Shown here piece by piece: positions 1 to 11,616 of a stretch of 26,144 bases of DNA (positions within the stretch are counted from its first letter, which is position 1; the number at the start of each line of letters is the position of its first letter). Under the pieces are notes generated by a model. That model was not told the origin of the DNA. It saw only the letters and a list, made by a program, of their open reading frames with translations, and ran no database searches. This stretch comes from a virus. Both the position numbers and the translations under genes were made by a program. The stretch spans positions 1 through 26,144 of the IMG/VR virus record IMGVR_UViG_3300043399_000889, one strand, 5' to 3'.

Positions 1-6
1 TTTATA

Positions 7-258
7 TTAAAAAGTGGGTTCCAGTAAATCAGAATCCAAAATCAGCGCATCAAATGGAATTTCAATTTCACCCAAAACCAGATTAACTGGCCAATTATAG
101 TGCGCGAAAAAATTTTCGTCCAAATCCTTTTCCGAATAACCCAACATGGTTTTGTAATAATCGGCCGCGCGATTAATTACATCAGTGGTAATTTGCCAAA
201 CAGTCCAGCCATTATAATCCGGCTGGTGAATACCCAATTCGCGAAACGTCAAAATCAT
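7..258 (-). CDS. hypothetical protein, 83 aa
   Basis: I do not recognise this protein. It is 83 residues, acidic in its second half, and rich in Trp, Tyr and Phe, with no clear membrane segment or metal motif. An AAGGAT ribosome site lies 5 bases before the ATG, which supports this start. It follows the helix-turn-helix gene at 309-635 on the same strand. A GC-rich hairpin (284-306) lies between the two, so it is either read through from the 686-714 promoter or has its own weak promoter. The stop is just inside the window edge, so the gene is complete. Coding status is well supported by the start site and the compact packing with its neighbours; the function is unknown. Confidence 0.75.
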   Translation of the reverse strand: MILTFRELGIHQPDYNGWTVWQITTDVINRAADYYKTMLGYSEKDLDENFFAHYNWPVNLVLGEIEIPFDALILDSDLLEPTF

Positions 259-283
259 TTTAAATCCTTTTTAGATTATGGGG

Positions 284-306
284 AAAATGGGGCAAAATGC
301 CCCATT
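284..306 (-). terminator. hairpin between two leftward genes
   Basis: AATGGGGCA (286-294) and TGCCCCATT (298-306) form a 9-bp stem with a 3-base loop. Read leftward, the stem ends in TTTT before CCCC. It sits 3 bases after the stop of the helix-turn-helix gene, so it may partly terminate that transcript before the 83-aa gene. Confidence 0.6.
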
Positions 307-308
307 AT

Positions 309-635
309 TTAAAGCGGCTTGCTATTAGCAAGTGCCTCGAAAATCGCTTTGAGTGCGGATTTATTCGCTTTCGTGAGCGATTCAATATCATTTTCCGGCA
401 GTCGCAGAATCGCGCCGATAGCATCGGCGTGAGCGTCTTTTTTCACGACCGGCTCACCGGTTTTGGTTTTGTAAACCTTTTTCTCATACACGCCTTCGCG
501 CGACAGTTTAGCGACAATCGAACGCACCGACTTGCCAAGGGTTTCAGCAATTTGCTCAACAGTCACGCCCGACTGATAGTCGGCGACCATTTTAAGGGTT
601 TGTTCCGGGGTGTAGTTGACAGTTTTGCTAGCCAT
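309..635 (-). CDS. small helix-turn-helix DNA-binding protein, copy 1
   Basis: This 108-residue protein has a predicted helix-turn-helix at about residues 10-48 (TPEQTLKMVADYQSG, then VEQIAETLGKSVRSIVAKLS). The Lys-rich stretch after it (EKKVYKTKTGEPVVKK) suits DNA contact. The C-terminal third is a separate acidic helix pair. It resembles small helix-turn-helix proteins found in many aquatic phages whose targets are unknown. A GGAGA site lies 7 bases before the ATG, and a leftward promoter (686-714) precedes it. A paralog at 4777-5100 shares the first 60 residues almost unchanged but uses more GC-rich codons. Either copy could be the factor that reads the palindromes beside the rightward promoters; that is a guess from the pairing of a DNA-binding protein with repeated operators. 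Confidence 0.85.
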   Translation of the reverse strand: MASKTVNYTPEQTLKMVADYQSGVTVEQIAETLGKSVRSIVAKLSREGVYEKKVYKTKTGEPVVKKDAHADAIGAILRLPENDIESLTKANKSALKAIFEALANSKPL

Positions 636-685
636 AGGTTTTTCTCCAGTTTCACCGCCTGCCCTATTGCCTGCGGTATGCCTCT

Positions 686-714
686 ATTATAGCGGGTTTT
701 TGCCGAAAAAACAA
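686..714 (-). promoter_or_regulatory. leftward sigma-70 promoter for the HTH gene
   Basis: On the minus strand TTGTTT (709-714) and TATAAT (686-691) are 17 bases apart. It points at the 309-635 gene and stands back to back with the rightward promoter at 761-790, with the palindrome 744-761 between them. Confidence 0.7.
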
Positions 715-743
715 GCCTGACCCTAAATTTGTGAAAATACAAC

Positions 744-790
744 ATAGGTGGAAACACCTATTGACACGGGCGAAAATTATATGATATAAT
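744..790 (+). promoter_or_regulatory. module 1: palindromic operator plus rightward promoter
   Basis: ATAGGTGGAAACACCTAT (744-761) is a perfect 7-bp inverted repeat around GAAA. Its last base is the first base of TTGACA (761-766), followed after 18 bases by TATAAT (785-790) and TTTGGCGC. No rightward gene follows; the next gene runs leftward and ends at 838. The same arrangement occurs at five other places in the window. Confidence 0.8.
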
Positions 791-796
791 TTTGGC

Positions 797-830
797 GCAA
801 AAATGAGAAACAAAAGTTCTCATTTTTGCC
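797..830 (+). ncRNA. module 1: candidate short hairpin RNA and two-way terminator
   Basis: GCAAAAATGAGAA (797-809) and TTCTCATTTTTGC (817-829) form a perfect 13-bp stem with a 7-base loop, starting about where the rightward promoter would initiate. A-rich and T-rich flanks lie on both sides, so it can terminate both the rightward transcript and the leftward operon that ends at 838. The RNA product is inferred, not shown. Confidence 0.4.
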
Positions 831-837
831 TTAAGGC

Positions 838-1029
838 TTAATCCAGAAAATCTGGCCAGAATTCCGGTCTGAGATTAATCCAGAATTCCGAATCCATTTG
901 TTGCTGAATTGAATATTGCCTCAAATATTCAATTTGAATTGATTCACTTTCATCCCCGCGAGCTGGAAATATAATTATTTCCATATTAAATTGCGGTTCC
1001 ATGCCTATAATAAAATCCCGAGAATTCAT
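838..1029 (-). CDS. hypothetical acidic protein, 63 aa
   Basis: I do not recognise it. It is 63 residues, acidic, with aromatic and glutamine-rich stretches (SIQQQMDSEFWINLRPEFWP) and no membrane segment. A GGGGG ribosome site lies 3-4 bases before the ATG. It is the last gene of a three-gene leftward operon: SprT-like, small membrane protein, then this one. Spacing to the gene before it is 14 bases. The operon ends at the module 1 hairpin. Packing and start site support coding. Confidence 0.7.
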   Translation of the reverse strand: MNSRDFIIGMEPQFNMEIIIFPARGDESESIQIEYLRQYSIQQQMDSEFWINLRPEFWPDFLD

Positions 1030-1043
1030 TATCAGCCCCCAGT

Positions 1044-1256
1044 TTAGAAAAAGTTAACCAAACCGATGCAATTTGCCACAAAAAATGTAGCATTTAGCAC
1101 GCCCAACGCGCGGTCACGGCGAACCCACGCCACCACCAGCCACGACAGAGAACCAAAAGTAAACAGCACATAGCCAATTTGAAACCATTTGGTTGCAACA
1201 GCAAACGAACCCAAAATCGAGGTCAGCGTGCCAAACCAAGAAACAAAAGTAATCAT
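1044..1256 (-). CDS. small membrane protein, 70 aa
   Basis: This 70-residue protein has two to three hydrophobic segments, at about residues 1-20, 25-45 and 50-70. The positive patch WVRRDR at about 44-49 lies between the last two, so a hairpin or three-pass inner membrane protein is likely. Its ATG overlaps the TGA of the SprT-like gene (ATGA), and GGAGA lies about 11 bases upstream inside that gene, so translation is probably coupled. I cannot assign a function. Small phage membrane proteins are often linked to superinfection exclusion or host envelope effects, but nothing here shows that. Confidence 0.75.
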   Translation of the reverse strand: MITFVSWFGTLTSILGSFAVATKWFQIGYVLFTFGSLSWLVVAWVRRDRALGVLNATFFVANCIGLVNFF

Positions 1257-1633
1257 TTTCTGGAAATCTCCATGGGGTGAAACTTGTCAGCGGGAAGCCC
1301 ATATTGTAGCATCATTTTGCACCATTGTGCGCCATGGCCGCATCTTTTTTCGCTTTCACCGTGTAGGTTAAAATCGGCTTGATGGATAATCTCATGCGGA
1401 AGGATTACCTGCATCATATAATCGAAGTTTTTAGTATTCGATTTAAAAAATTTGTAACCCAATTCTACCAAATTCAAATCCTGAAAACACATGCCAGCCG
1501 TGCGCCAAGTGTAAGGATTTAGTTTAAATTTGGGCGGGTCGTATGCTACCAAGGTAGGATACGTTTCGCAAAGTGAATCCCAAATGATTACGCTTTCGCG
1601 TTCAATTAGGGTTAAGAGTTTGGCTTTGTCCAT
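1253..1633 (-). CDS. SprT-like zinc metalloprotease-fold protein, copy 1
   Basis: The 126-residue protein carries HEIIH at residues 80-84 (two zinc ligands and the catalytic Glu) and a downstream CGHGAQW at 99-104, where H100 is the likely third ligand. The HExxH...HG..W layout is that of SprT/Spartan-like proteases. The C-terminal half fits this fold; the first 50 residues are not assigned. I start at the internal ATG at 1633, not the longer frame to 1729. The longer frame would cross module 2, whereas a TGTTATAAT promoter ends exactly 6 bases before this ATG, which implies a leaderless message. Known family members cleave DNA-bound proteins, but phage versions are uncharacterised. A second SprT-like gene lies at 3881-4213. 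Confidence 0.8.
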   Translation of the reverse strand: MDKAKLLTLIERESVIIWDSLCETYPTLVAYDPPKFKLNPYTWRTAGMCFQDLNLVELGYKFFKSNTKNFDYMMQVILPHEIIHQADFNLHGESEKRCGHGAQWCKMMLQYGLPADKFHPMEISRK

Positions 1634-1639
1634 GCCTAT

Positions 1640-1648
1640 ATTATAACA
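1640..1648 (-). promoter_or_regulatory. extended -10 promoter for leaderless SprT-like gene
   Basis: On the minus strand TGTTATAAT (an extended -10, TG-N-TATAAT) is followed by six bases and then the ATG at 1633. I see no good -35. Transcription would begin at or next to the start codon, as in lambda cI from PRM. Confidence 0.65.
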
Positions 1649-1667
1649 CCAGAGTGCCCAGCCTATA

Positions 1668-1712
1668 CTAGGGAAAATACCTATTGACAAATTGCCGGGC
1701 CGGAGGTAAAAT
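1668..1712 (+). promoter_or_regulatory. module 2: operator plus rightward promoter
   Basis: CTAGGGAAAATACCTAT (1668-1684) is a weaker copy of the palindrome (TAGG/CCTA). It runs into TTGACA (1684-1689), with TAAAAT (1707-1712) after 17 bases and GGCGCGCC following. No rightward gene lies downstream. Confidence 0.7.
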
Positions 1713-1717
1713 GGCGC

Positions 1718-1819
1718 GCCCGCAAACAAAGGTATTCATTTTTGCGGGCAGTCGCTTGAAGCGACCGCGCGATTTTGAATACCTTTGTTTGCAAGGACAT
1801 CTGCAAACAAAGGTATTAA
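1718..1819 (+). ncRNA. module 2: structured repeat, candidate sRNA and terminator
   Basis: Arm A, GCAAACAAAGGTATTCA (1722-1738), pairs perfectly over 17 bp with 1776-1792 and encloses the palindrome GTCGCTTGAAGCGAC (1751-1765). A second copy of arm A (1803-1819) follows and could pair with the same 1776-1792 segment. A competing stem joins GCCCGCAAA (1718-1726) to TTTGCGGGC (1741-1749). Read leftward, the last two arms form a 15-bp hairpin straight after the SemiSWEET stop codon, a likely terminator. The two exclusive folds suggest a switch; the RNA itself is inferred. Confidence 0.45.
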
Positions 1820-2071
1820 TTAGCGTTTACCTGGCCGGATTTTGTAATAAGTGATTATGGAAATAAATATAATGTTGGCGGTATAATTAAATATAAGCGG
1901 CCAATGCCATTTGGGGATAATATAAACAATCGTGAATAATTCACCCAAACCCCACATTAGCAAAAATCCCCAAGTTAATCCCGCGGATGATTTTGTTTTG
2001 TAAGATTCCCAAGCCTGCGGTAATCCGCAAAATGCGAGTAAAATGCCGCCAATCCAGCCGATGATTTCCAT
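1820..2071 (-). CDS. SemiSWEET / PQ-loop membrane transporter-like protein
   Basis: This 83-residue protein has three hydrophobic helices, at about residues 3-20, 32-51 and 55-76. The PQ motif lies at the end of helix 1 in FCGLPQAWESYKTKSSAGL. The pattern GxxGG...LPQ..k.yktKSs.glt and the three-helix single-repeat size match bacterial SemiSWEETs, which dimerise and carry sugars by facilitated diffusion; other PQ-loop proteins carry amino acids or act otherwise. AAGGAT lies 7-8 bases before the ATG. It is last in a leftward operon after a DEDDh exonuclease and ends at module 2. In a phage it may be an auxiliary metabolic gene that alters host sugar traffic; the substrate cannot be read from sequence. 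Confidence 0.8.
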   Translation of the reverse strand: MEIIGWIGGILLAFCGLPQAWESYKTKSSAGLTWGFLLMWGLGELFTIVYIIPKWHWPLIFNYTANIIFISIITYYKIRPGKR

Positions 2072-2072
2072 T

Positions 2073-2186
2073 TTAGATAATCCTTGAAACAGTTTGAATA
2101 ATAAACGGGGTTTTCTTGATTTCAGAATCCAGCCGTTTATCTTCGATTAAGTGAAACACCAGTGCGATAATCCAAAGTATTTTCAT
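2073..2186 (-). CDS. possible small protein, 37 aa
   Basis: A short frame starts at an ATG at 2186 with MKILWIIALVFHLIEDKRLD. It ends with a TAA one base before the SemiSWEET ATG, and it contains that gene's ribosome site. The hydrophobic start (residues 3-12) followed by charged residues could be a small membrane or exported peptide. There is no clear Shine-Dalgarno; instead a stable GAAA-loop hairpin (about 2198-2215) stands just before it. It fills the only gap in this operon, which is the main argument for it. I am unsure it is translated. Confidence 0.35.
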   Translation of the reverse strand: MKILWIIALVFHLIEDKRLDSEIKKTPFIIQTVSRII

Positions 2187-2197
2187 GCTATTAACGG

Positions 2198-2215
2198 GGG
2201 CTTTCGCCCCCGATT
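2198..2215 (-). terminator. GC-rich hairpin after exonuclease gene
   Basis: CGGGGGC and GCCCCCG form a 7-bp stem around a four-base loop (GAAA on the minus strand). It lies 5 bases after the exonuclease stop. The tract after it is TTAATA, not a T-run, so it may stabilise the RNA end or pause transcription more than terminate it. Confidence 0.5.
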
Positions 2216-2219
2216 ATAT

Positions 2220-2918
2220 TTACTTGGCGGTAAAATTATCTTTTACCTGAAAATCGCGCCAATTATAGGCTTGGATTTTCTCGCGCCAATCGCGCTTTTT
2301 GAGAATATTAACCAAAATCGGCAATTCAAAATCGCGTGCATCTTCCAGTGCAGTATGCGGCTCGTCAATAATTTGATTATTGAGAAAACCCGCGACAACT
2401 TCCGCATTAGTTTGATAAGTCATATTGCGGTTTTGAGTGGCCGCATTAAATGCGTGATTATCGAGCGCGAATTGACGATATTTGCGCGAATGGCAGATAT
2501 TGCCAACAGCGGCTTGCCAAAGGCAAAAACGATTATTAAAACCGGACAAATCAATACCGGTATTCTCGCATTTGGCAGAATCAAAAGCCAGATTATATGC
2601 GGTCAATTGGGGATTATATTTGCCAATGGCTTGATTAATCCAGCGATTAATCGCGGCAGTGCTGGCAAGCAAACGCTGGCCATTATTGAGCATATCATTA
2701 TATTTGGCTTTTTTGGATTGTGCATATTCAAAAGACCAAATGCCCTTGGCATTTTTGTCATAAAACAAATCCATAGAATCAAAATGATTTTTGACCAAAA
2801 CCGCGCAGGAATTGAAAATCTGGCCCTCACGGTCGCAGATAATCGCGGCAAAATCGGCAACGGTGTCGCCAATAGTGGTTTCAGTGTCAACGATGCAGAA
2901 AAATTGCTTTTTAGCCAT
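2220..2918 (-). CDS. DEDDh 3'-5' exonuclease (DnaQ/RNase T-like)
   Basis: The 232-residue protein shows the DEDDh active site: DTET at residues 11-14 (D11, E13), AFD at 111-113 (D113) and HTALEDA at 188-194 (H188, D193). These bind two metal ions and cut nucleotides from 3' ends. The spacing and length fit the DnaQ epsilon, RNase T and phage exonuclease group; there is no polymerase domain. It could proofread in trans, trim RNA or degrade host DNA, and sequence does not decide. I start at the ATG at 2918 (MAKKQFF), where the DnaQ fold begins, not at 3005, because the longer frame crosses the promoter 2982-3010. A weak TGGAAA ribosome site precedes it. First gene of the operon with the SemiSWEET gene. 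Confidence 0.85.
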   Translation of the reverse strand: MAKKQFFCIVDTETTIGDTVADFAAIICDREGQIFNSCAVLVKNHFDSMDLFYDKNAKGIWSFEYAQSKKAKYNDMLNNGQRLLASTAAINRWINQAIGKYNPQLTAYNLAFDSAKCENTGIDLSGFNNRFCLWQAAVGNICHSRKYRQFALDNHAFNAATQNRNMTYQTNAEVVAGFLNNQIIDEPHTALEDARDFELPILVNILKKRDWREKIQAYNWRDFQVKDNFTAK

Positions 2919-2981
2919 TTGGTTTCCAATTACCGGAACCGCCGGAATTCGCGGGTAACGCATCATCGCGTTACAGGGTAG

Positions 2982-3010
2982 ATTATACCACCAGACACGC
3001 GCCACGGCAA
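2982..3010 (-). promoter_or_regulatory. leftward promoter for the exonuclease operon
   Basis: On the minus strand TTGCCG (3005-3010) and TATAAT (2982-2987) are 17 bases apart. It lies back to back with module 3 and leaves a leader of about 60 bases before the ATG at 2918. The leader contains a small GTAACGCGATGATGCGTTAC hairpin (about 2955-2974). Confidence 0.65.
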
Positions 3011-3018
3011 ATTATTTT

Positions 3019-3065
3019 CTAGGTGAAAACCCCTATTGACAAGTGTATGAGAGTTGTGGTATAAT
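3019..3065 (+). promoter_or_regulatory. module 3: operator plus rightward promoter
   Basis: CTAGGTGAAAACCCCTAT (3019-3036) is a near-palindrome joined to TTGACA (3036-3041), with TATAAT (3060-3065) after 18 bases and then TTTGGCGC. The upstream flank AATTATTTT is shared with modules 6 and 7. No rightward gene follows. Confidence 0.8.
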
Positions 3066-3071
3066 TTTGGC

Positions 3072-3194
3072 GCCACCAAGTGTATACCTTTGTTTTCAAT
3101 TCTTTTTGAAAACAAAAGTATACAGTCGCTAAAAGCGACCACATAAAAAATGAATACCTTGGTTTCCAAGGTATTCTGCAAACAAAGGTATTAA
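3072..3194 (+). ncRNA. module 3: candidate structured sRNA of about 120 nt
   Basis: Three stems follow the promoter. Stem 1 pairs 3082-3099 with 3106-3123 (17 of 18). Stem 2 is GTCGCTAAAAGCGAC (3125-3139). Stem 3 is GAATACCTTGG-TTT-CCAAGGTATTC (3152-3176). A GCAAACAAAGGTATTAA tail (3178-3194) can compete for the left arm of stem 3 and reaches the stop of the HAD gene. The hairpins also serve as a leftward terminator. Expression is inferred. Confidence 0.45.
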
Positions 3195-3667
3195 TGCCCT
3201 TGTTTAGAGGGAACATAAACCCCGCGAATATTGAAACGGTCGCAAACCGCTTTCAGATAATCAACATTATCCTCATAAAAAGTAAATTCGGCATCTTGAA
3301 AGGGTTTCAAGTTAAAGAATTTAGCCAAACCCGCGATTTTTAGTTTACCGCCTGAAACGGTATCGCCGTCAACACGCGAGATAATATAATCGGGTTCGCC
3401 TAGAATATCGCGAATAAATGTATTATCAGCGTCCCGCAAAACGCGGGCAGTAGCAATAATAACAAAACAATTTTCATCTTTCAAATCCGCTTTATATTGT
3501 TCAGCCAGTGGCAAAAGAGAATCATCCATCGCGCGATATTCATTCTCGCGCCAATATCCCAAGTCGATTTTCTCGCCATTATCGCCCATAACAGTGCGAT
3601 AGCGATGCAAACTGCAAACAATAGTTCCATCCATATCGTAAATGGAAACCCGTTTAATCTTTGCCAT
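3191..3667 (-). CDS. HAD-superfamily phosphatase
   Basis: This 158-residue protein has all four HAD motifs: YDMDGT at residues 10-15 (D11 nucleophile, D13 acid/base), an IIATAR stretch near residue 70 (motif II Thr), GGKLKIAGL (motif III Lys) and FYEDNVDYL (motif IV acids). There is almost no cap, as in phage-type 5'-nucleotidases and the phosphatase half of polynucleotide kinase; a nucleotide or nucleic-acid-end substrate is therefore likely but not proven. I start at the ATG at 3667 (AAGGG 7 bases before it), because the longer frame to 3748 crosses the promoter and overlaps module 4. It is a single-gene leftward unit ending at module 3. Confidence 0.85.
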   Translation of the reverse strand: MAKIKRVSIYDMDGTIVCSLHRYRTVMGDNGEKIDLGYWRENEYRAMDDSLLPLAEQYKADLKDENCFVIIATARVLRDADNTFIRDILGEPDYIISRVDGDTVSGGKLKIAGLAKFFNLKPFQDAEFTFYEDNVDYLKAVCDRFNIRGVYVPSKQGH

Positions 3668-3698
3668 TTTGAAACCCTTAGTGTGTTGCGATGTATAG

Positions 3699-3704
3699 AT
3701 TATA
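3699..3704 (-). promoter_or_regulatory. leftward -10 box for the HAD gene
   Basis: TATAAT on the minus strand, 32 bases before the ATG at 3667. The -35 is weak (GTGTCA at 17 bases). The leader ATACATCGCAACA resembles those of the 5125-5217 and 5438-5800 genes. Confidence 0.5.
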
Positions 3705-3746
3705 ACCCCAAAACCCCCGATTGACACGCTTGTGCCAAAATACAAC

Positions 3747-3793
3747 ATAGGTGGAAACCCCTATTGACAAGTGTGCCAGAACCGTGCTATAAT
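3747..3793 (+). promoter_or_regulatory. module 4: operator plus rightward promoter
   Basis: ATAGGTGGAAACCCCTAT (3747-3764) joins TTGACA (3764-3769), with TATAAT (3788-3793) after 18 bases, then TTTGGCGC. The flank AAAATACAACATAGGTGG is identical to that of module 1. Confidence 0.8.
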
Positions 3794-3799
3794 TTTGGC

Positions 3800-3876
3800 G
3801 CCAACTGTAACCAAAAAGTATACAGTCGCTCAAAGCGACCTAATACCTTGGTTTGCAGTTTTTTCTGCAAACCTGG
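3800..3876 (+). ncRNA. module 4: candidate structured sRNA and terminator
   Basis: It contains GTCGCTCAAAGCGAC (3825-3839) and a 9-bp stem GGTTTGCAG / CTGCAAACC (3850-3858 with 3865-3873) around six T. Only half of the GTATAC stem seen in modules 3 and 6 remains (3818-3823). It ends just before the stop of the second SprT-like gene. Confidence 0.4.
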
Positions 3877-3880
3877 GTTT

Positions 3881-4213
3881 TCAATTTTCGTCCACGTCAG
3901 GCATATAAATGTTTTGCAAACCAAAGTGCTCGCCCATAGCTTGGGCCAGCCGCTGAAAGTGTTTGCCGTGAATCTCGGCTTTTTTGTGTTCTTCCTGCCA
4001 AGCATGGATTAGCTCATGCGCCAGCAGGGTATCAAAGTCACGGTGCGCGTCTACGGTGTAAACCACAATTTTATGGGATTTCAGCAAGCCGGTTTTATCG
4101 CTGTATACGCCAATGTAAAACGCATCGCAGTCAGCACGCCGGCGAGTGCGAACGCTAACCTCAACAGGCAAACGAATACCCAGGTATTCAATCATCTGGT
4201 GTAGTGCTTTCAT
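3881..4213 (-). CDS. SprT-like zinc metalloprotease-fold protein, copy 2
   Basis: The 110-residue protein has HELIH at residues 66-70 and HGKHF at 82-86, where H82 is the probable third zinc ligand. The spacing of 11 residues between H70 and H82 differs from copy 1 (15). The sequence outside the motifs is quite different from copy 1, so these are distant relatives, not a recent duplication. The family includes SprT and Spartan proteases. The start is the ATG at 4213, with GGGGAT 5 bases before it, one base after the stop of the 47-aa gene, so the two are translationally coupled. The operon ends at module 4. Confidence 0.8.
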   Translation of the reverse strand: MKALHQMIEYLGIRLPVEVSVRTRRRADCDAFYIGVYSDKTGLLKSHKIVVYTVDAHRDFDTLLAHELIHAWQEEHKKAEIHGKHFQRLAQAMGEHFGLQNIYMPDVDEN

Positions 4214-4214
4214 A

Positions 4215-4358
4215 TTAAATCCCCAAGTGAAAATAAATCCAGTCCTCAAGCTCGGCATCCGTCAAGCTGGCAATAAACCGGCAGTCGTTCAAGATCAGGT
4301 CATAGTATTGACCCGAAAGCTGAGCCAGTATCACGGCTTTTTGAAGTGGTGTGTTCAT
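4215..4358 (-). CDS. hypothetical protein, 47 aa
   Basis: This short, mostly helical, acidic protein begins MNTPLQKAVILAQLSGQYYD and ends in an acidic, Trp-containing helix. I do not recognise it. Its ATG lies exactly 6 bases after a TGTTATAAT extended -10, so the message should be leaderless; there is no Shine-Dalgarno. Its stop is one base from the ATG of the SprT-like gene, so it may mainly deliver ribosomes to that gene. The same promoter-to-ATG geometry is seen for the gene at 1253-1633. Confidence 0.7.
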   Translation of the reverse strand: MNTPLQKAVILAQLSGQYYDLILNDCRFIASLTDAELEDWIYFHLGI

Positions 4359-4364
4359 GAGTTT

Positions 4365-4373
4365 ATTATAACA
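4365..4373 (-). promoter_or_regulatory. extended -10 promoter for leaderless 47-aa gene
   Basis: Minus-strand TGTTATAAT followed by six bases and ATG. No -35 match at 16-18 bases. Identical -10 sequence and distance to those at 1640-1648. Confidence 0.65.
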
Positions 4374-4411
4374 CAATTTCAGGGACACGCGCACGTGTAA
4401 AAATAAACAAC

Positions 4412-4458
4412 ATAGGGGTTTATCCCTATTGACAAGTGTGTGAGATTTGTGGTAAAAT
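4412..4458 (+). promoter_or_regulatory. module 5: operator plus rightward promoter
   Basis: ATAGGGGTTTATCCCTAT (4412-4429) keeps the palindrome (ATAGGG/CCCTAT) although the bases differ from modules 1 and 4. This covariation argues that symmetry is what matters. TTGACA is at 4429-4434 and TAAAAT at 4453-4458, 18 bases apart. Confidence 0.8.
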
Positions 4459-4464
4459 TGGCGC

Positions 4465-4550
4465 CTGCATACCAAAGTATGCAGTCGCTCAAAGCGACCG
4501 CTTCAAAAATGAATACCTTGGTTTCCAAGGTATTCTGCAAACAAAAGTTA
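4465..4550 (+). ncRNA. module 5: candidate structured sRNA and terminator
   Basis: Three stems: CTGCATAC-CAAA-GTATGCAG (4465-4484), GTCGCTCAAAGCGAC (4484-4498), and GAATACCTTGG-TTT-CCAAGGTATTC (4511-4535). A GCAAACAAAA tail runs into the stop of the 54-aa gene. Stem 1 differs in sequence from stem 1 of modules 3 and 6 but remains paired. Confidence 0.45.
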
Positions 4551-4712
4551 TGAGTTTTCGTCCATCTCAGCGCGAATCTTAGCCCAGTCCTCAGCAGTCC
4601 AAACCAGCACGCCATCGCTGGCCAGGTAGGTTTGCATGGCCTGGGCCATGGTTTCGGCTTCAATCTCAGTCTCGCGGCCGGTCGTCATATCTTCAAAAAC
4701 GAATTTTTCCAT
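4548..4712 (-). CDS. hypothetical acidic protein, 54 aa
   Basis: This small acidic protein (MEKFVFEDMTTGRETEIEAE at the start) looks like a short beta-hairpin followed by helices and has no membrane segment. AGGAG lies 7 bases before the ATG and there is a leftward -10 at 4735-4740, so it is well supported as a gene. I do not recognise it. It lies between the second helix-turn-helix gene and module 5. Its codon use is GC-richer than that of the AT-rich genes at 1-4400. Confidence 0.75.
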   Translation of the reverse strand: MEKFVFEDMTTGRETEIEAETMAQAMQTYLASDGVLVWTAEDWAKIRAEMDENS

Positions 4713-4734
4713 GGTGTGCTCCTGTAAAATGTGG

Positions 4735-4763
4735 ATTATATCACGAAAAGGCAGGGGCACAAA
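4735..4763 (-). promoter_or_regulatory. leftward promoter for the 54-aa gene
   Basis: Minus-strand TTTGTG (4758-4763) and TATAAT (4735-4740), 17 bases apart. The -35 falls inside the hairpin 4751-4771, so terminator and promoter overlap. Confidence 0.55.
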
Positions 4764-4771
4764 GCCCCTGC
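4747..4771 (-). terminator. terminator after HTH copy 2
   Basis: GCAGGGGC (4751-4758) pairs with GCCCCTGC (4764-4771). Read leftward, the 8-bp stem is followed by CTTTT. It lies 5 bases after the stop of the helix-turn-helix gene. Confidence 0.75.
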
Positions 4772-4776
4772 TGGCA

Positions 4777-5100
4777 TCAGGCCTTTTCAGCCCGGATGAA
4801 ATCGGCAATCTTGGCAAGAGCCGTTTTGTTGGCTTTGGTCAGCGATTCCGTATCGGCTTCGCTCAAGCCCAGGGCTTCGCCGATGTAATCGGCCCAAGCA
4901 TCCTTCTTCACAACGGCTTCGCCGGTCTTGGTCTTGTAGACCTTCTTTTGATACACGCCCTCACGCGAGAGCTTGGCAACAATCGAGCGAACCGATTTGC
5001 CGAGAGCTTCGGCCATGCTTTCAACGGTCACGCCGGCTTGATAGTCGGCAACCATCTTAGCGGTTTGCTCGGGGGTATAGTTCACGGTTTTTGCAGTCAT
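4777..5100 (-). CDS. small helix-turn-helix DNA-binding protein, copy 2
   Basis: A 107-residue paralog of the 309-635 protein. The helix-turn-helix (AEALGKSVRSIVAKLSREGV, about residues 29-48) and Lys-rich linker are almost identical; the C-terminal 30 residues diverge (IADFIRAEKA versus IFEALANSKPL). Its codons are clearly richer in G and C than copy 1, which points to separate acquisition or different expression demand. The ATG at 5100 is preferred over 5103 because it matches the start of copy 1 and puts AGGAGA at 5-6 bases. It follows a 30-aa membrane protein gene in one operon from the promoter at 5245-5272 and has its own terminator. Confidence 0.85.
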   Translation of the reverse strand: MTAKTVNYTPEQTAKMVADYQAGVTVESMAEALGKSVRSIVAKLSREGVYQKKVYKTKTGEAVVKKDAWADYIGEALGLSEADTESLTKANKTALAKIADFIRAEKA

Positions 5101-5124
5101 CATTTTCTCCTGAAAAGTCAAGGG

Positions 5125-5217
5125 TTAGGGTTTCATCACAAAAACAAAGTATACCACAAACGGCAAGGCAATGCAAGCGGCAAAGGCCAGTGCATCGAAA
5201 AATTCTTTTTTGCTCAT
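5125..5217 (-). CDS. single-pass membrane peptide, 30 aa
   Basis: A tiny gene encoding a charged start (MSKKEFFD), one hydrophobic helix at about residues 9-27 and the C-terminus MKP. AAGGA lies 7 bases before the ATG and a good leftward promoter lies 28 bases further up, so I consider it real despite its length. It is 24 bases from the helix-turn-helix gene in the same operon. Function unknown; topology is probably N-in. Confidence 0.7.
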   Translation of the reverse strand: MSKKEFFDALAFAACIALPFVVYFVFVMKP

Positions 5218-5244
5218 GTTGATTTCCTTGTTGCGATGGAGTCT

Positions 5245-5272
5245 ATTATACAGGGTTTGCAGGCGTGGTCAA
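5245..5272 (-). promoter_or_regulatory. leftward promoter for the 30-aa / HTH operon
   Basis: Minus-strand TTGACC (5267-5272) and TATAAT (5245-5250), 16 bases apart. The leader ATCGCAACAAGGAAA is repeated almost unchanged before the 5438-5800 gene. Confidence 0.7.
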
Positions 5273-5282
5273 CAATTATTTT

Positions 5283-5329
5283 CTAGGTGAAAACACCTAT
5301 TGACAAGTGTGTGAGATTTGTGCTATAAT
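5283..5329 (+). promoter_or_regulatory. module 6: operator plus rightward promoter
   Basis: CTAGGTGAAAACACCTAT (5283-5300), an inverted repeat of TAGGTG/CACCTA, joins TTGACA (5300-5305), with TATAAT (5324-5329) after 18 bases, then ATTGGCGC. The upstream flank AATTATTTT matches module 3. Confidence 0.8.
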
Positions 5330-5335
5330 ATTGGC

Positions 5336-5430
5336 GCACCCAAGTGTATACTTTTGTTTGCGAAACAAATTGAAAACAAAAGTATACATACTACTCTGGC
5401 GCAAAACGCATACCTAAGTATGCGTTTTGC
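5336..5430 (+). ncRNA. module 6: candidate structured sRNA and terminator
   Basis: Two strong stems: GTATACTTTTGTTT (5346-5359) with 5374-5387, 14 bp, and GCAAAACGCATAC (5401-5413) with GTATGCGTTTTGC (5418-5430), 13 bp around CTAA. The GTCGCT stem of modules 2-5 is missing. The second stem ends 8 bases before the stop of the HNH-like gene and can terminate from both sides. Confidence 0.45.
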
Positions 5431-5437
5431 TTGCTAC

Positions 5438-5800
5438 TTAAACGCCGGCCACCTTCTTGCAGAAGGCCCGGAACTGCTCCAGGGGCATCTCGCCGCGCAG
5501 ATTGTTGGCAAACGCAGTGGCCAAGTGGATGTTGCCGATTTCATACCCGCGCGTGCAGTCGATGCGATCCATCGAGCACACCAGAGGATTCTTGCCGCCA
5601 TACCAATCGCCGCCGCGCTCGATGCTCATGAGGTCGCCGGTCAAACCACAACGACCTTGCTGGCCATGGAACAGGCCGACCAGATACTGCACAGTCACGC
5701 CATCGTCAAACGGCAGATTCTTGATTTTAGCACGATGCTTGGCATGCTTGAGACTAGTGGCGAAGAACTGTTCGAGAGGGGAGCGGGTGGAGCGGGCCAT
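5438..5800 (-). CDS. HNH-like (His-Me finger) endonuclease
   Basis: This 120-residue protein has GRCGLTG at residues 49-55, SMDRID at 76-81, then GYEIGNIHL at 85-93 and AFANNLRG after it. This C..TG...(S)xDRID...GY..GN..L....N pattern is typical of phage HNH-like nucleases, including free-standing homing-type enzymes, in which the Asp/Asn residues hold the metal. The N-terminal 30 residues are basic. AAGGAA lies 8 bases before the ATG, and a leftward promoter (5827-5854) precedes it. Codons are GC-rich compared with genes to the left, which fits a mobile origin. It is distinct from the zinc-ribbon HNH next to the terminase. Confidence 0.75.
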   Translation of the reverse strand: MARSTRSPLEQFFATSLKHAKHRAKIKNLPFDDGVTVQYLVGLFHGQQGRCGLTGDLMSIERGGDWYGGKNPLVCSMDRIDCTRGYEIGNIHLATAFANNLRGEMPLEQFRAFCKKVAGV

Positions 5801-5873: not shown

Positions 5874-5890
5874 ATAGGGATAAACCCTAG
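5874..5890. promoter_or_regulatory. module 7: orphan palindromic operator
   Basis: ATAGGGATAAACCCTAG (TAGGG/CCCTA), preceded by the AAATTATTTT flank of modules 3 and 6. TTGACA is absent, so the rightward promoter has been lost or was never there. A GTATAC box and ACAAAAGTATTAC nearby (5900-5932) look like decayed remains of a module stem. Confidence 0.55.
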
Positions 5891-6174: not shown

Positions 6175-6648
6175 ATGCAACAAAATTTACCTGCAGAAAC
6201 ACTGCAAATCCAACCCGAATACTTAGAAGTGGCAAACCACTACCTGCAATGCGGCAACGTTCAAACTGTTGCTGACGACCTTGAACTCGCCCCCGAGCGC
6301 GTGTCGGAGATCCTGCGCCGACCTGAAGTACGTGGCTATGTGTCGCAGGTATACTTAGACACCGGCTACAACAACCGATTTTTAATGCGTCGTGCGGTGG
6401 ATGCACTAATCAAGCGCAAGTTTCAGGAGCTGGAAGAGGCAGATGTGGGTTCTAATAAAGACATCACCGAGCTGCTCACACTATCACATAAAATGACCAT
6501 GGACTACTTGGACCGTGAAATTCAGCTGGAGAAGCTGCGCCAGGGTAACACCGGCCCACAGCGCCAGGTTAACGTGCAGATTAATGAGCTAGACTCCAGC
6601 AAATACGCGCAGCTTGTGCAGAAATTAATTAGTGGAGACGGCGTTTAA
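6175..6648 (+). CDS. terS: terminase small subunit
   Basis: A 157-residue protein with an N-terminal helix-turn-helix (NVQTVADDLELAPERVSEIL, about residues 23-42) that would bind the packaging site. A helical, charged middle (RKFQELEEADVGSNKDITEL) fits oligomerisation, and the tail QVNVQINELDSS probably binds the large subunit. It is placed directly before the large terminase gene, and its TAA overlaps the ATG of that gene (TAATG). I choose the ATG at 6175, with AGGA 9 bases upstream, over a TTG at 6166. Identification rests on the helix-turn-helix, size and position. Confidence 0.8.
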   Translation: MQQNLPAETLQIQPEYLEVANHYLQCGNVQTVADDLELAPERVSEILRRPEVRGYVSQVYLDTGYNNRFLMRRAVDALIKRKFQELEEADVGSNKDITELLTLSHKMTMDYLDREIQLEKLRQGNTGPQRQVNVQINELDSSKYAQLVQKLISGDGV

Positions 6649-7949
6649 TGTTAGTAGTTTCCAGACCCGACGTTAATTGTGATGCTATTCAGGAGTTTGA
6701 CCCACAGCGCCGCTTTATTAAGCTGCCTATCACCAACTACCTAAAGTTGCTGGGGTTGTGGGACACTATCAACCGACCCCAAATCGCACTAATCAACGCG
6801 GTTAACGATCCCAAATACCGCTTTGTATGCGCGGCACTGGCTCGTCGCCTAGGCAAAACCTACATCGCCAACATTATTGGTCAGCTGGTCACACTAGTAC
6901 CCAACGCCAACGTGTTAATTATCTCGCCAAACTATAACCTTAGTAGTATCTCGTTTGAGTTGCAGCGCAAGCTTATTAAACACTTTGACCTAGAGGTAGC
7001 GCGTGATAACTTAAAAGACAAGATTATTGAGCTGTCAAACGGTAGCACAATTCGTATGGGTTCGTTATCGACTGTAGATTCAACAGTGGGTCGATCGTAT
7101 GACTTAATTATTTTTGATGAGGCTGCGCTGGGTGAGGGTGGTGAAGCAGCTTTTAACGTTGCACTACGTCCTACCCTAGACAAGCCCAACGCTAAAGCAA
7201 TTTTTATCTCTACTCCCCGCGGTAAAAACAACTGGTTTTCGCAGTTTTGGAATCGTGGATTTGACCCTAACTTTCCAGAATGGGTTTCACTACAAGCGGA
7301 CTATAGCGAAAATACACGCATGGCTGAGTCGGATGTGGCTGAAGCTCGCCGGTCCATGTCAAAAGCGGAGTTTGAGCAAGAGTACATGGCCAGCTTTACC
7401 ACCTTTGAAGGCCAGATTTATGCACTAGCGGAGTCTAATATTGTCGCGGAGCTGCCACCACAAGTACTAGAAGGCCGTGGTTGTGAGTTCTTTGCAGGCT
7501 GTGACCCTGGCTACCGCGACGAAACTGCGTTTGTGGTGGTGTGCTATGTAGCGTCGGAGGACCGATTCTACATAGTAGACGAGTACTTGGAGTCGGAGCG
7601 TACTACGCAACAACACTCTGAGGCTTTTCAGGCACTGTGTTCACGCTACGGCATTGAAACCATATTTATTGACAGTGCAGCTGCACAGTTTAGTGCTGAC
7701 CTTGCGTACCAGTACAATTTGGCAACCACTCGTGCTAAAAAGGACGTGCTGCCCGGCATTGCCTATATTCAAACGCTTGTGGGTCAAGACAGGCTGCGCG
7801 TTGCCCAACACTGCAAGCATGTCTTAGCCATGTTTGACCAGTACCGCTGGGACACTCGTGAAAACCTGCAACGTGAACGCCCACTACACGACAAATACTC
7901 GCACATGGCTGACGCTGTTAGGTACGCACTATACACCTTTACAGTGTAA
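6648..7949 (+). CDS. terL: terminase large subunit
   Basis: The 433-residue packaging motor has an ATPase half with a Walker A variant ALARRLGKT at residues 63-71, Walker B LIIFDEAA at 153-160 (catalytic E158) and the coupling motif ISTPRG at 187-192. The C-terminal RNase H-like nuclease half shows D286 in GCDPGYRDE, D342 in FIDSAAAQ and D415/D422 in the HDKYSHMADAVRYA segment. It binds the portal vertex, pumps DNA into the prohead and cuts concatemers. Length is normal for a lambda/HK97-type siphovirus enzyme. Its start overlaps the TerS stop by one base. The next gene is an HNH nuclease. Confidence 0.95.
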   Translation: MLVVSRPDVNCDAIQEFDPQRRFIKLPITNYLKLLGLWDTINRPQIALINAVNDPKYRFVCAALARRLGKTYIANIIGQLVTLVPNANVLIISPNYNLSSISFELQRKLIKHFDLEVARDNLKDKIIELSNGSTIRMGSLSTVDSTVGRSYDLIIFDEAALGEGGEAAFNVALRPTLDKPNAKAIFISTPRGKNNWFSQFWNRGFDPNFPEWVSLQADYSENTRMAESDVAEARRSMSKAEFEQEYMASFTTFEGQIYALAESNIVAELPPQVLEGRGCEFFAGCDPGYRDETAFVVVCYVASEDRFYIVDEYLESERTTQQHSEAFQALCSRYGIETIFIDSAAAQFSADLAYQYNLATTRAKKDVLPGIAYIQTLVGQDRLRVAQHCKHVLAMFDQYRWDTRENLQRERPLHDKYSHMADAVRYALYTFTV

Positions 7950-8055: not shown

Positions 8056-8487
8056 ATGGCAAAAAACACAAACAAGCGCATCCCAGTTAAATGGGTACGA
8101 GACCGCGCTAAAGCAGCTTACGAAAAGCAAGGCAACTGTTACATTTGTAACAGCACCCAAGACTTAGAGCTGCATCACCTACATTCAATTACAGTTTTGC
8201 TAGAAACGTGGGCAGACCGCAAAGGCTACGACATTTCCACTGACGAAGGCATCTTAGCTTGCCGCGATGAATTTATCCAAGCACATAAAGTGGAGCTATA
8301 CGAGCAGGTATATACCCTATGTAACCGGCATCATGTAGCACTTCACGGTGTGTATGGTAAAACTCCTCAGCCAGGTTCTGAGTCAAGACAAGCACGTTGG
8401 ATTGAAATACAGCGTAGCAAAGTTCAAAACGGTGGACGTGTACAAGACAGCCTAGCAGGTACCTCAAGTTTTGCAGGACTCTACTAG
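8056..8487 (+). CDS. HNH endonuclease (packaging-associated)
   Basis: This 143-residue protein has a zinc-bound HNH fold: CYIC at residues 28-31, the metal/catalytic ELHHLHS at 38-44 and LCNRHHVALHGVYG at 88-101 (C89, H92/H93). The order terL, HNH, portal fits phages in which an HNH protein works with the terminase to cut cos ends, as shown for HK97-type phages. The N-terminus is basic and could bind DNA. The Shine-Dalgarno is weak (AGGC, 10 bases before the ATG), while the promoter just upstream is perfect, so the start remains the least certain part. The last 25 residues are low in structure. Confidence 0.85.
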   Translation: MAKNTNKRIPVKWVRDRAKAAYEKQGNCYICNSTQDLELHHLHSITVLLETWADRKGYDISTDEGILACRDEFIQAHKVELYEQVYTLCNRHHVALHGVYGKTPQPGSESRQARWIEIQRSKVQNGGRVQDSLAGTSSFAGLY

Positions 8488-9690: not shown

Positions 9691-11616
9691 ATGGTAGATA
9701 AAAATAAAATCATTTACTTTAACAGTAAGTTTACTGCTAAGGCACTACCTAAGACCGACGACGAAGATGAAAGCATTGAGATTGAGGGTTATGCGTCGAC
9801 AAACGACAAAGACCGTCACGGAGATGTTGTTCCAAGCAGCGTGTGGGAGAAGGGCATCAGCAATTACCTAAAGAATCCGGTAATTTTAGCCTATCATAAT
9901 CACACCTTGCCAGTCGGCAAAATGATTGACTATAAAATCGACGACAAAGGATTATGGATTAAAGCCCGTATTTCTGACGCAGCCGGCGATGTATACAAAC
10001 TAGTCAAGAAGGGTATCCTAAGTGCTTTCAGTATTGGATTCCGCATCGAAGATGCAGAGTACAATTCAGCAGCAGAGGTATTTTTAGTTAAAGAGCTGGA
10101 GCTACATGAAATTTCAGTAGTAAGTGTACCAGCAAATCAAAACACACTTTTTAGTCTTTCTAAGGCATTTGACAGCGCCGAAGAATTTGAATCTTTTAAA
10201 ATGCAATTTGCAGTCAGTAGCGACTCAGCTAAAGGGCTAGAAGCCTCTGACCAAGCAGATAGCGAAGTTAATAAGGAATGGAACATGGATCCAAAACAAT
10301 TAGAACAAATGTTGGCCGCTGCTGCTGAGAAGGCTGCTGCCCAGGCTGCTAAGGCAATCGTCGAAGCACAAGAAAAGGCTGCTGCTGAGAAGGCTGCCCA
10401 AGACAAGGCTGAGGCCGAACTACAAGCACGTATCAAGGCTGCTGTTGCTGCCGTTACTCCTGCTGAAACTGGTGCTGAGAAGCTACTGGCCGAAGTTGAG
10501 AAGCGTTTAGCTGATACACAGGCTGAAAGCAAGAAGGCTCTAGAAGGCCTAGAAACTGCTCTTAAGGAAAAGGCTGCTGAGCTAGAAGCCATTCAAAAGA
10601 GCCGTATGCAGTTCAGCGATGGCAAGGCTGGCGAAATGAGCTATGCCGACAAGGAAAAGGCAGTTCTGCTAGCTAAAATGGCTGGTAAGAGCTTAGAAAG
10701 CACCAAGTTTGGTCGCGAAATGGTTCAAAAGTATGGTGCACACGTACCTAGCGCTACTTGGGAACTAGAAGTTAGCCTAAACATGGAAAACGAAGTTCGT
10801 CGTCGTTTAGTTGTTGCTCCTACCCTACGCGGTATCCAGATGCAAACTAACGTTATGACTATCCCTGTGAACCCAGAAGCTGGCGTTGCAACATGGGTAC
10901 AGAACGCTCAGTTTGGTACTTCTAACAGTGCTGGTGGCAATGCTACTCACGCTCTAAAGGAAATCACCTTAAACGCATATAAGGTTGCTACAAACGAATA
11001 CGTTGCCTTCGAAGAAGAAGAAGACGCACTAGTAGCCATTATGCCTGTTATTCGTGATGCTATGGTTCGCCGTGTTGCTCGCGCTGTTGACCGCGCTATG
11101 CTACGTGGTGCCGGTGCCGGCGCAGACCCAGTCAAGGGCCTAGCTACTTACGACGCAAGCAGCGCCGTTACTATGGACATCAGCAACAACGACAAGTTAA
11201 CTGTTGCTCGTCTACGTGCTATGCGCCGTGATCTAGGTGCATGGGGTCTAGACCCAAGCGAACTAGTCTACATCGTTTCCACAGACGGTTACTACGACCT
11301 GTTAGACGACGACAACTTCCTAACAGTTGACAAGGTTGGCACACAAGCTACCCTATTAACTGGTCAAATTGGTAGCGTTGCTAACACTCCAGTTCTAGTT
11401 AGCGCCGAGTTCGCTGACAAGGCTGACGGTGCAGTTGGTGCAATCTGCTTTGCTCCAGGTAACTTCTTAGTTGGTAACCAGCGTGGTCTACGCGTTGACA
11501 CCGACGACTTAGTTGAGACACAGCGTCGCGTAATGGTTGCAAGCCTACGCACTGGTCTAACACAAGTTACAACTAACTTAGGTGACGGCGTAAGCGCCCT
11601 ACGTTACGTAGCTTAA
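9691..11616 (+). CDS. fused prohead protease - scaffold - major capsid protein
   Basis: This 641-residue polyprotein has three parts. Residues about 1-165 are an S78/HK97 prohead protease with H69 in AYHNHTLPVG and S114 in LSAFSIGF, plus the usual LHEISVVSVPAN end. About 199-305 is an Ala/Glu/Lys coiled coil like the HK97 delta scaffold. About 310-641 is an HK97-fold capsid subunit. AAGGAG lies 5 bases before the ATG at 9691. A second ribosome site AAGGA (10273-10277) lies 7 bases before an in-frame ATG at 10285 (residue 199), so scaffold-capsid can probably be made without the protease, keeping the protease scarce. The capsid part has a strong CTA/TTA leucine and GCT alanine preference, consistent with high expression. 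A terminator follows. Confidence 0.92.
   Translation: MVDKNKIIYFNSKFTAKALPKTDDEDESIEIEGYASTNDKDRHGDVVPSSVWEKGISNYLKNPVILAYHNHTLPVGKMIDYKIDDKGLWIKARISDAAGDVYKLVKKGILSAFSIGFRIEDAEYNSAAEVFLVKELELHEISVVSVPANQNTLFSLSKAFDSAEEFESFKMQFAVSSDSAKGLEASDQADSEVNKEWNMDPKQLEQMLAAAAEKAAAQAAKAIVEAQEKAAAEKAAQDKAEAELQARIKAAVAAVTPAETGAEKLLAEVEKRLADTQAESKKALEGLETALKEKAAELEAIQKSRMQFSDGKAGEMSYADKEKAVLLAKMAGKSLESTKFGREMVQKYGAHVPSATWELEVSLNMENEVRRRLVVAPTLRGIQMQTNVMTIPVNPEAGVATWVQNAQFGTSNSAGGNATHALKEITLNAYKVATNEYVAFEEEEDALVAIMPVIRDAMVRRVARAVDRAMLRGAGAGADPVKGLATYDASSAVTMDISNNDKLTVARLRAMRRDLGAWGLDPSELVYIVSTDGYYDLLDDDNFLTVDKVGTQATLLTGQIGSVANTPVLVSAEFADKADGAVGAICFAPGNFLVGNQRGLRVDTDDLVETQRRVMVASLRTGLTQVTTNLGDGVSALRYVA
10273..10287 (+). 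promoter_or_regulatory. internal ribosome site and start for scaffold-capsid
   Basis: AAGGA at 10273-10277, seven bases, then ATG at 10285-10287, in frame with the capsid gene (residue 199). It lies exactly between the protease linker and the coiled-coil scaffold. This is a better Shine-Dalgarno than many starts in the window. Confidence 0.65.

Follow-up and report, generated by a model that had tools for sequence, protein, structure and literature searches.

Opposing promoter modules in the small-gene cluster of a T5-like phage: an apparently undescribed form of regulatory punctuation

The IMG/VR virus record IMGVR_UViG_3300043399_000889 (26,144 bases, called the window below) contains six copies of a module that faces against the surrounding genes. 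Each copy lies between small leftward genes and follows the same general order: a TAGG-N7/8-CCTA operator, a strong rightward promoter of the sigma70 type, the motif GGCGC, and a stretch of strong palindromes. A preliminary description of this DNA had reported a repeated promoter-palindrome module opposing the genes in six gaps, and this observation is confirmed, as all six plus-strand promoters are present between leftward genes. The module was not found in the named phage records searched, and it seems to be a form of regulatory punctuation not yet described in phages. As a regular repeated unit found in every checked member of its clade, it points to a layer of control, itself undescribed, where the leftward small-gene cluster meets the late operon. 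The explanation that we place first, still tentatively, is that the modules are operator-controlled opposing promoters, serving as switch or insulator units, which deliver short untranslated transcripts and most likely act in cis.

Six promoter modules between leftward genes

Open reading frames (ORFs) were called mechanically. Small leftward genes occupy positions 1-5800 of the window, and the rightward late operon runs from about 6166. The modules are arranged as follows.

745-829, plus strand: module 1; operator 745-760, promoter 761-790 (12/12, -10 within a dyad), GGCGC 794-798
1669-1819, plus strand: module 2; operator-like TAGGGAAAATACCTA 1669-1683, promoter 1684-1712, GGCGC 1713-1717, palindromes to 1819
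3020-3190, plus strand: module 3; operator 3020-3035, promoter 3036-3065, GGCGC 3069-3073, palindromes 3081-3190
3748-3880, plus strand: module 4; operator 3748-3763, promoter 3764-3793, GGCGC 3797-3801, palindromes to 3880
4413-4547, plus strand: module 5; operator 4413-4428, promoter 4429-4458 (TAAAAT), GGCGC 4460-4464, palindromes to 4547
5284-5430, plus strand: module 6; operator 5284-5299, promoter 5300-5329, GGCGC 5333-5337, palindromes 5343-5430

The structured stretch of every module stops at the stop codon of the next leftward ORF, and the palindrome of module 1, which reaches to about 829, resembles a bidirectional terminator. Taken together, the modules are repeated DNA between the genes of the window (up to 115 nt at 87%). 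In module 6, a second GGCGC, immediately followed by a perfect 13-bp palindrome, was observed at about 5397-5430, where no promoter accompanies it.

By the hexamer and spacing rule for sigma70 promoters (TTGACA and TATAAT, 16-18 bp apart), the window holds four promoters that match the consensus at 12 of 12 positions (TTGACA-18-TATAAT, in modules 1, 3, 4, and 6) and two that match at 11 of 12. The latter two call for corrections of detail to the preliminary description: both have TAAAAT as the -10 element, the spacer being 17 bp in module 2 and 18 bp in module 5, and GGCGC follows after 0 and 1 nt, respectively. A TG extended -10 is present in five of the six. The chance expectation of a 12/12 promoter in 6.3 kb is about 0.0015 (by arithmetic), compared with the four observed on a single strand, and a scan at a weak threshold gave 33 promoter-like sites versus 12.3 in shuffled sequences. 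A chance origin of the modules was rejected on promoter quality, operator counts, strand and position in relatives, and folding relative to shuffles, since the promoters are both too good and too consistently placed.

Recurrence in an uncultivated T5-like clade

Judged from its protein homologies, the source phage is T5-like. The terminase large subunit (TerL) is 49% identical to that of Demerecviridae Vibrio phages, the portal protein matches the same group, and the HNH protein encoded between the two is a homolog of the T5-type nicking endonuclease; these homologs follow the T5 order, the arrangement by which membership of the Demerecviridae (T5-like) is recognized. Two of the genes serve as landmarks.

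6648-7949, plus strand: terminase large subunit gene (terL); start of the late operon and orientation reference for relatives
8056-8487, plus strand: HNH protein, homolog of T5-type nicking endonucleases, 40% identical to the 'nicking endonuclease' of Vibrio phage 234P1

IMG/VR was searched with terL proteins, exonuclease proteins, and the promoter pattern, which yielded 568 distinct modules from the uncultivated T5-like clade, most relatives being fragments. As these were deduplicated by sequence similarity and not by phylogeny, copy counts are not counts of independent events. Across 80 terL loci, all modules (147/147) share the strand of terL and lie upstream of it, and each of the 23 loci that extend 5 kb or more upstream of terL carries two to seven modules. 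Recurrence in related phages, which the preliminary description had set as its own test, is thus borne out. In 13 large records, module matches are confined to one region and to one strand per record; the strict pattern found none in two records (L125/G013 and L137/G010), and looser patterns gave module-like sites in both. A 12/12 match to TTGACA and TATAAT was seen in 421/568 modules and a TG extended -10 in 409/568, figures that are skewed to the consensus, the promoter itself having been the query pattern in several searches. Strand, position, and the 23 loci rest on the terL search and are free of that bias.

Outside the clade, 50,697 records of named phages gave no convincing match to the module, only partial ones with E values of about 0.2-0.8, in agreement with the earlier statement that no phage counterpart has been described. 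Two strict patterns run against one genome per species for 84,980 bacterial and archaeal species gave no exact match.

The preliminary description had the promoters pointing away from any sense gene. They do oppose the flanking genes; however, in many cases the promoter of the next leftward gene diverges from them, and their direction is that of the late operon, which has the same operator at its start. A leftward promoter was detected no more than 150 bp upstream of 206/471 modules, compared with 64 in shuffles, with the two -35 elements mostly 30-60 bp apart. Three such head-to-head promoters are predicted in the window.

2982-3010, minus strand: promoter head-to-head with module 3, belonging to the gene on its left; TTGCCG-17-TATAAT, 10/12
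3699-3727, minus strand: promoter head-to-head with module 4; GTGTCA-17-TATAAT, 10/12
5245-5272, minus strand: promoter head-to-head with module 6; TTGACC-16-TATAAT, 11/12

A shared operator and its link to the late operon

All six modules of the window have TAGG-N7/8-CCTA directly 5' of the -35 element, and the version with exactly eight spacer bases occurs five times in the window versus 0.4 times in shuffles. The inner positions of this operator vary with no compensating changes; we therefore rejected an RNA hairpin and consider a protein binding site likelier. As one operator is shared, control by one regulator, as proposed in the preliminary description, is probable. The same operator also stands alone ahead of the late genes.

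5875-5889, plus strand: operator TAGGGATAAACCCTA with no module, upstream of the late operon (terS/terL)

In the window and two large contigs, the operator was found directly 5' of TTGAC only at modules and where the late operon starts. At the latter place it precedes a conserved element, and a similar one with the arrangement operator-TTGAC-GGGCGGTTATTAGAC is present in 19/52 relatives. A D5-like helix-turn-helix (HTH) protein may be the regulator that binds the operator, two copies being encoded in the cluster.

309-635, minus strand: D5-like HTH DNA-binding protein, copy 1 (PHROG 323, E 6e-7)
4777-5121, minus strand: D5-like HTH DNA-binding protein, copy 2 (PHROG 323, E 8e-8, searched as the 107-aa version 4777-5100)

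The DNA of these paralogs is 72% identical over 293 nt, and the two genes bracket most of the module cluster.

Downstream palindromes and the -10 dyad

The preliminary description saw in the modules a family of phage small RNAs, which we regard as possible but unproven. According to this explanation, the modules would encode stable hairpin RNAs of 30-150 nt that act in trans by binding host or phage RNAs or proteins. No sense gene lies downstream of the promoters (a rightward ORF of 30 or more codons that also has a Shine-Dalgarno-like site close to GGCGC was found at 6/367 modules), and the predicted transcript would begin GC-rich, as is the case for stable-RNA promoters. Folding is also strong: the downstream segments of the window reach z values of -4.0 to -8.3 as plus-strand RNA and -4.5 to -7.8 as minus-strand RNA, a stability matched by none of 200 shuffles on either strand. 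Overall, however, the opposite strand folds equally well or slightly better, so the signal is not specific to rightward RNA, as had been supposed. Near-perfect palindromes begin no more than a few bases from GGCGC in 205 of 369 representative modules and have 188 different 5' arms, and their mismatches (10 G.T versus 20 A.C) reveal no preference for wobble pairs; complementarity is therefore kept and the sequence is not, consistent with the earlier remark that the stems vary while pairing is maintained. Rfam gave no match at the modules of the window and four relatives.

Strict rightward intrinsic terminators within 220 nt were predicted in 77/369 modules (5 in shuffled sequences), about 30 of which would give units of 27-37 nt after GGCGC, and are missing from most modules, whereas leftward ones were predicted in 110/369. 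In the window, the terminator-like hairpins are mostly leftward (3176-3152, 4535-4511, 3145-3119, and 3840-3824), with a sole rightward one in module 4 (3850-3873), which agrees with the earlier suggestion that hairpins are reused to terminate leftward genes. In sequence terms, a conserved RNA would behave differently from these palindromes, and an RNA family acting in trans is in our opinion unlikely. Free palindrome sequence, no strand preference, and no favour for wobble fit best with a role in cis.

In the canonical module of the relatives, TTGACA-CGGG-CCAAAATTATA-TGG-TATAATTTTGGCGC, the -10 element sits in a dyad, whose left arm changes alongside the -10 or the bases that follow it (TAAAAT, TACAAT, ATT, TTC, T, C). 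Among 94 thinned sequences, two-sided changes fill 22 cells compared with 5.4 in column shuffles (maximum 13 in 500 shuffles). This supports covariation of the arms, with limits, as a control slid by -3 gave 25 cells, of which only 31% were paired. Templated palindrome correction could also be the source of such changes. Modules 3-6 of the window have no -10 dyad and a G/T-rich spacer. Wobble asymmetry was dropped as a strand test of the dyad, since the apparent excess of G.T can be traced nearly in full to the TRTG position and a shift of register and is uninformative, and an explanation of the dyad as a symmetric promoter was rejected because the spacing is wrong.

A proposed role as switch or insulator units

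Each module would be a strong promoter for host RNA polymerase (sigma70), controlled by its operator, which fires rightward, back-to-back with the promoter of one leftward small gene and aimed at the 3' end of the next. Rightward transcription, if the promoters are used, would run into palindromic DNA, which in a fair share of the copies is a terminator as well, and the product would be at most a short, untranslated, structured RNA. A phage regulator at TAGG-N8-CCTA, possibly a D5-like HTH protein of the cluster, would set the balance between leftward transcription of the small genes and rightward transcription, and the operator copy ahead of the late operon would link that balance to the onset of late transcription. 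The opposing polymerase together with the terminators might insulate the leftward genes or shut them off by interference, and the -10 dyad may have a regulatory meaning of its own. The modules are a convenient system in which to study opposing-promoter control in lytic phages.

Several points weigh against this explanation. At the threshold applied, 265/471 modules lacked a detected leftward promoter within 150 bp. The full operator is directly adjacent in only 143/568 modules, some half-site being present within 60 nt in 334, and control by a single regulator is therefore not universal. Moreover, insulation alone does not explain the near-consensus promoters, the retention of a GGCGC whose spacing to the -10 varies, or the covariation in the -10 dyad.

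Host-protein sites, recombination cassettes, and nick sites

At least some of the palindromes coincide with sites to which a host DNA-binding protein is known to bind. In the loci, 37 distinct sites are canonical or near-canonical parS, the site of ParB, and 35 of these lie 29-65 nt past the GGCGC of a module. The exact chromosomal form (TGTTTCACGTGAAACA, or the version with CATG) was observed in locus L058 at 3875, 5251, 5994, and 6870 and also in L039, L077, L110, L142, L198, L231, and others. The parS 16-mer has been described as faithfully marking the main chromosomes of bacteria (PMC5450999), and no ParB_N protein was found in the 18 records examined. Other palindromic words likewise recur with fixed spacers (GTCGCTT-1-AAGCGAC and TGAATAC-4-GTATTCA). 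With parS present within modules, a role in docking or as a decoy is conceivable, in which an array of palindromes beside strong promoters would bind host DNA-binding proteins, ParB among them in a subset. We find this doubtful, as parS occurs in only 20 of the 369 representatives and nowhere in the window, and the majority of the palindromes correspond to no site known to us. Combining both ideas, the cluster might be a platform where opposing promoters and host-protein palindromes, parS included, dock on, divert, or titrate the chromosome machinery during the leftward-to-rightward switch; this we hold to be rather doubtful. The parS sites pose the question of whether lytic phages that lack ParB use or sabotage host chromosome segregation.

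The modules could also be recombination cassettes that enable gene shuffling between phages, as repeated promoter-terminator blocks of the type called PeSLs in T4-type phages. They are indeed repeated intergenic DNA, the same palindrome words occur in different phages, and in L008 the spacing of the modules differs while their sequences are nearly identical. Yet strand and genome position are fixed, the order of recognized genes in L014 and L089 (compared by eye) is similar and unshuffled, and the promoters run against the genes. In PeSLs, by contrast, the promoter is co-directional with the gene downstream of the stem-loop. Recombination cassettes are accordingly improbable.

Very improbable is the proposal that GGCGC, between two palindromes, is the target of a T5-type nicking endonuclease, which would account for the single strand. 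The window encodes a nickase homolog, the T5 nick consensus R/GCGCRGG (PMC3517423) shares its core with GGCGC, and the nicks in the T5 annotation lie on the terL strand, as do the modules. The full consensus, however, is present in 12/568 modules and in none of the six in the window, T5 nicks are not at promoters, the upstream element of T5 nicks (GTAAY-N30) is absent at the modules, and GGCGC has no consistent strand bias genome-wide. As consensus, upstream element, and distribution fail, the modules were not filed as T5 nick sites despite the fit of core and strand. For RNA-primed origins, also raised in the preliminary description, nothing was found in favour.

Neighbouring genes and other features

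The leftward genes with a recognizable family include, in addition to the two D5-like HTH proteins, a polynucleotide-kinase-like protein, an HNH endonuclease, and two SprT-like proteins of the metalloprotease family in the same small-gene cluster (1253-1633 and 3881-4213). A single ORF of 641 aa at 9691-11616 takes the position that in T5 belongs to two genes, for prohead protease and capsid, and is fusion-like by position and length.

Beyond the module cluster, relatives carry a separate array (L014 3616-3760; L089 10980-11062, minus strand; L025 1550-1700; L128 10400-10517). It consists of a promoter with GGTTTNNCACT in its spacer and repeats ending in CACTGGCGC, which resemble a DnaA box, and it is similar to the T5 injection-stop/nick-1 sequence GGATTTGCACAAAA/GCGCAGGG. 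Between the early genes and this array lies an ORF-poor region of about 1.3-1.8 kb that includes a tRNA-Glu gene (L089 11620-12880; L014 1700-3500).

Comparison with known systems

The exact 16 bp of bacterial chromosomal parS are found in modules of some relatives. The setting is unlike that on chromosomes, with no phage ParB found in the 18 records and parS absent from the window.

PeSLs are promoter-terminator cassettes of T4-type phages (Arbiol 2010 and Comeau 2014, as cited in PMC4503421), and they have in common with the modules a repeated, intergenic, strong host-type promoter with stem-loops among small genes. Unlike PeSLs, the modules oppose their flanking genes, carry an operator, are fixed in strand relative to terL, and belong to a T5-like clade.

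The single-chain interruptions and injection-stop region of T5 share the R/GCGC core on the terL strand and the encoded nickase homolog, and the separate array of the relatives (GGATTTGCAC...GCGCA) resembles T5 nick 1. The modules themselves fit only the 5-nt core, and T5 nick sites are not promoters.

Bidirectional bacterial promoters with a symmetric -10, studied by Warman, Grainger, and colleagues, likewise have their -10 elements in dyad symmetry. This class is defined by overlapping -10s and divergent starts 7-25 bp apart (PMC10268837, PMC12825309), whereas the two -10s of the modules do not overlap and the predicted starts are 26-31 bp apart (by arithmetic).

Finally, the late promoter of lambda (pR'-tR'/6S RNA, with Q-dependent antitermination) resembles the modules in its strong promoter with a near terminator, its short leader RNA, and its aim toward the late genes. 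No Q-like protein or sign of antitermination was found here, though none was looked for, and unlike pR'-tR', the modules are present in multiple copies and have oppositely oriented genes between them and the late operon.

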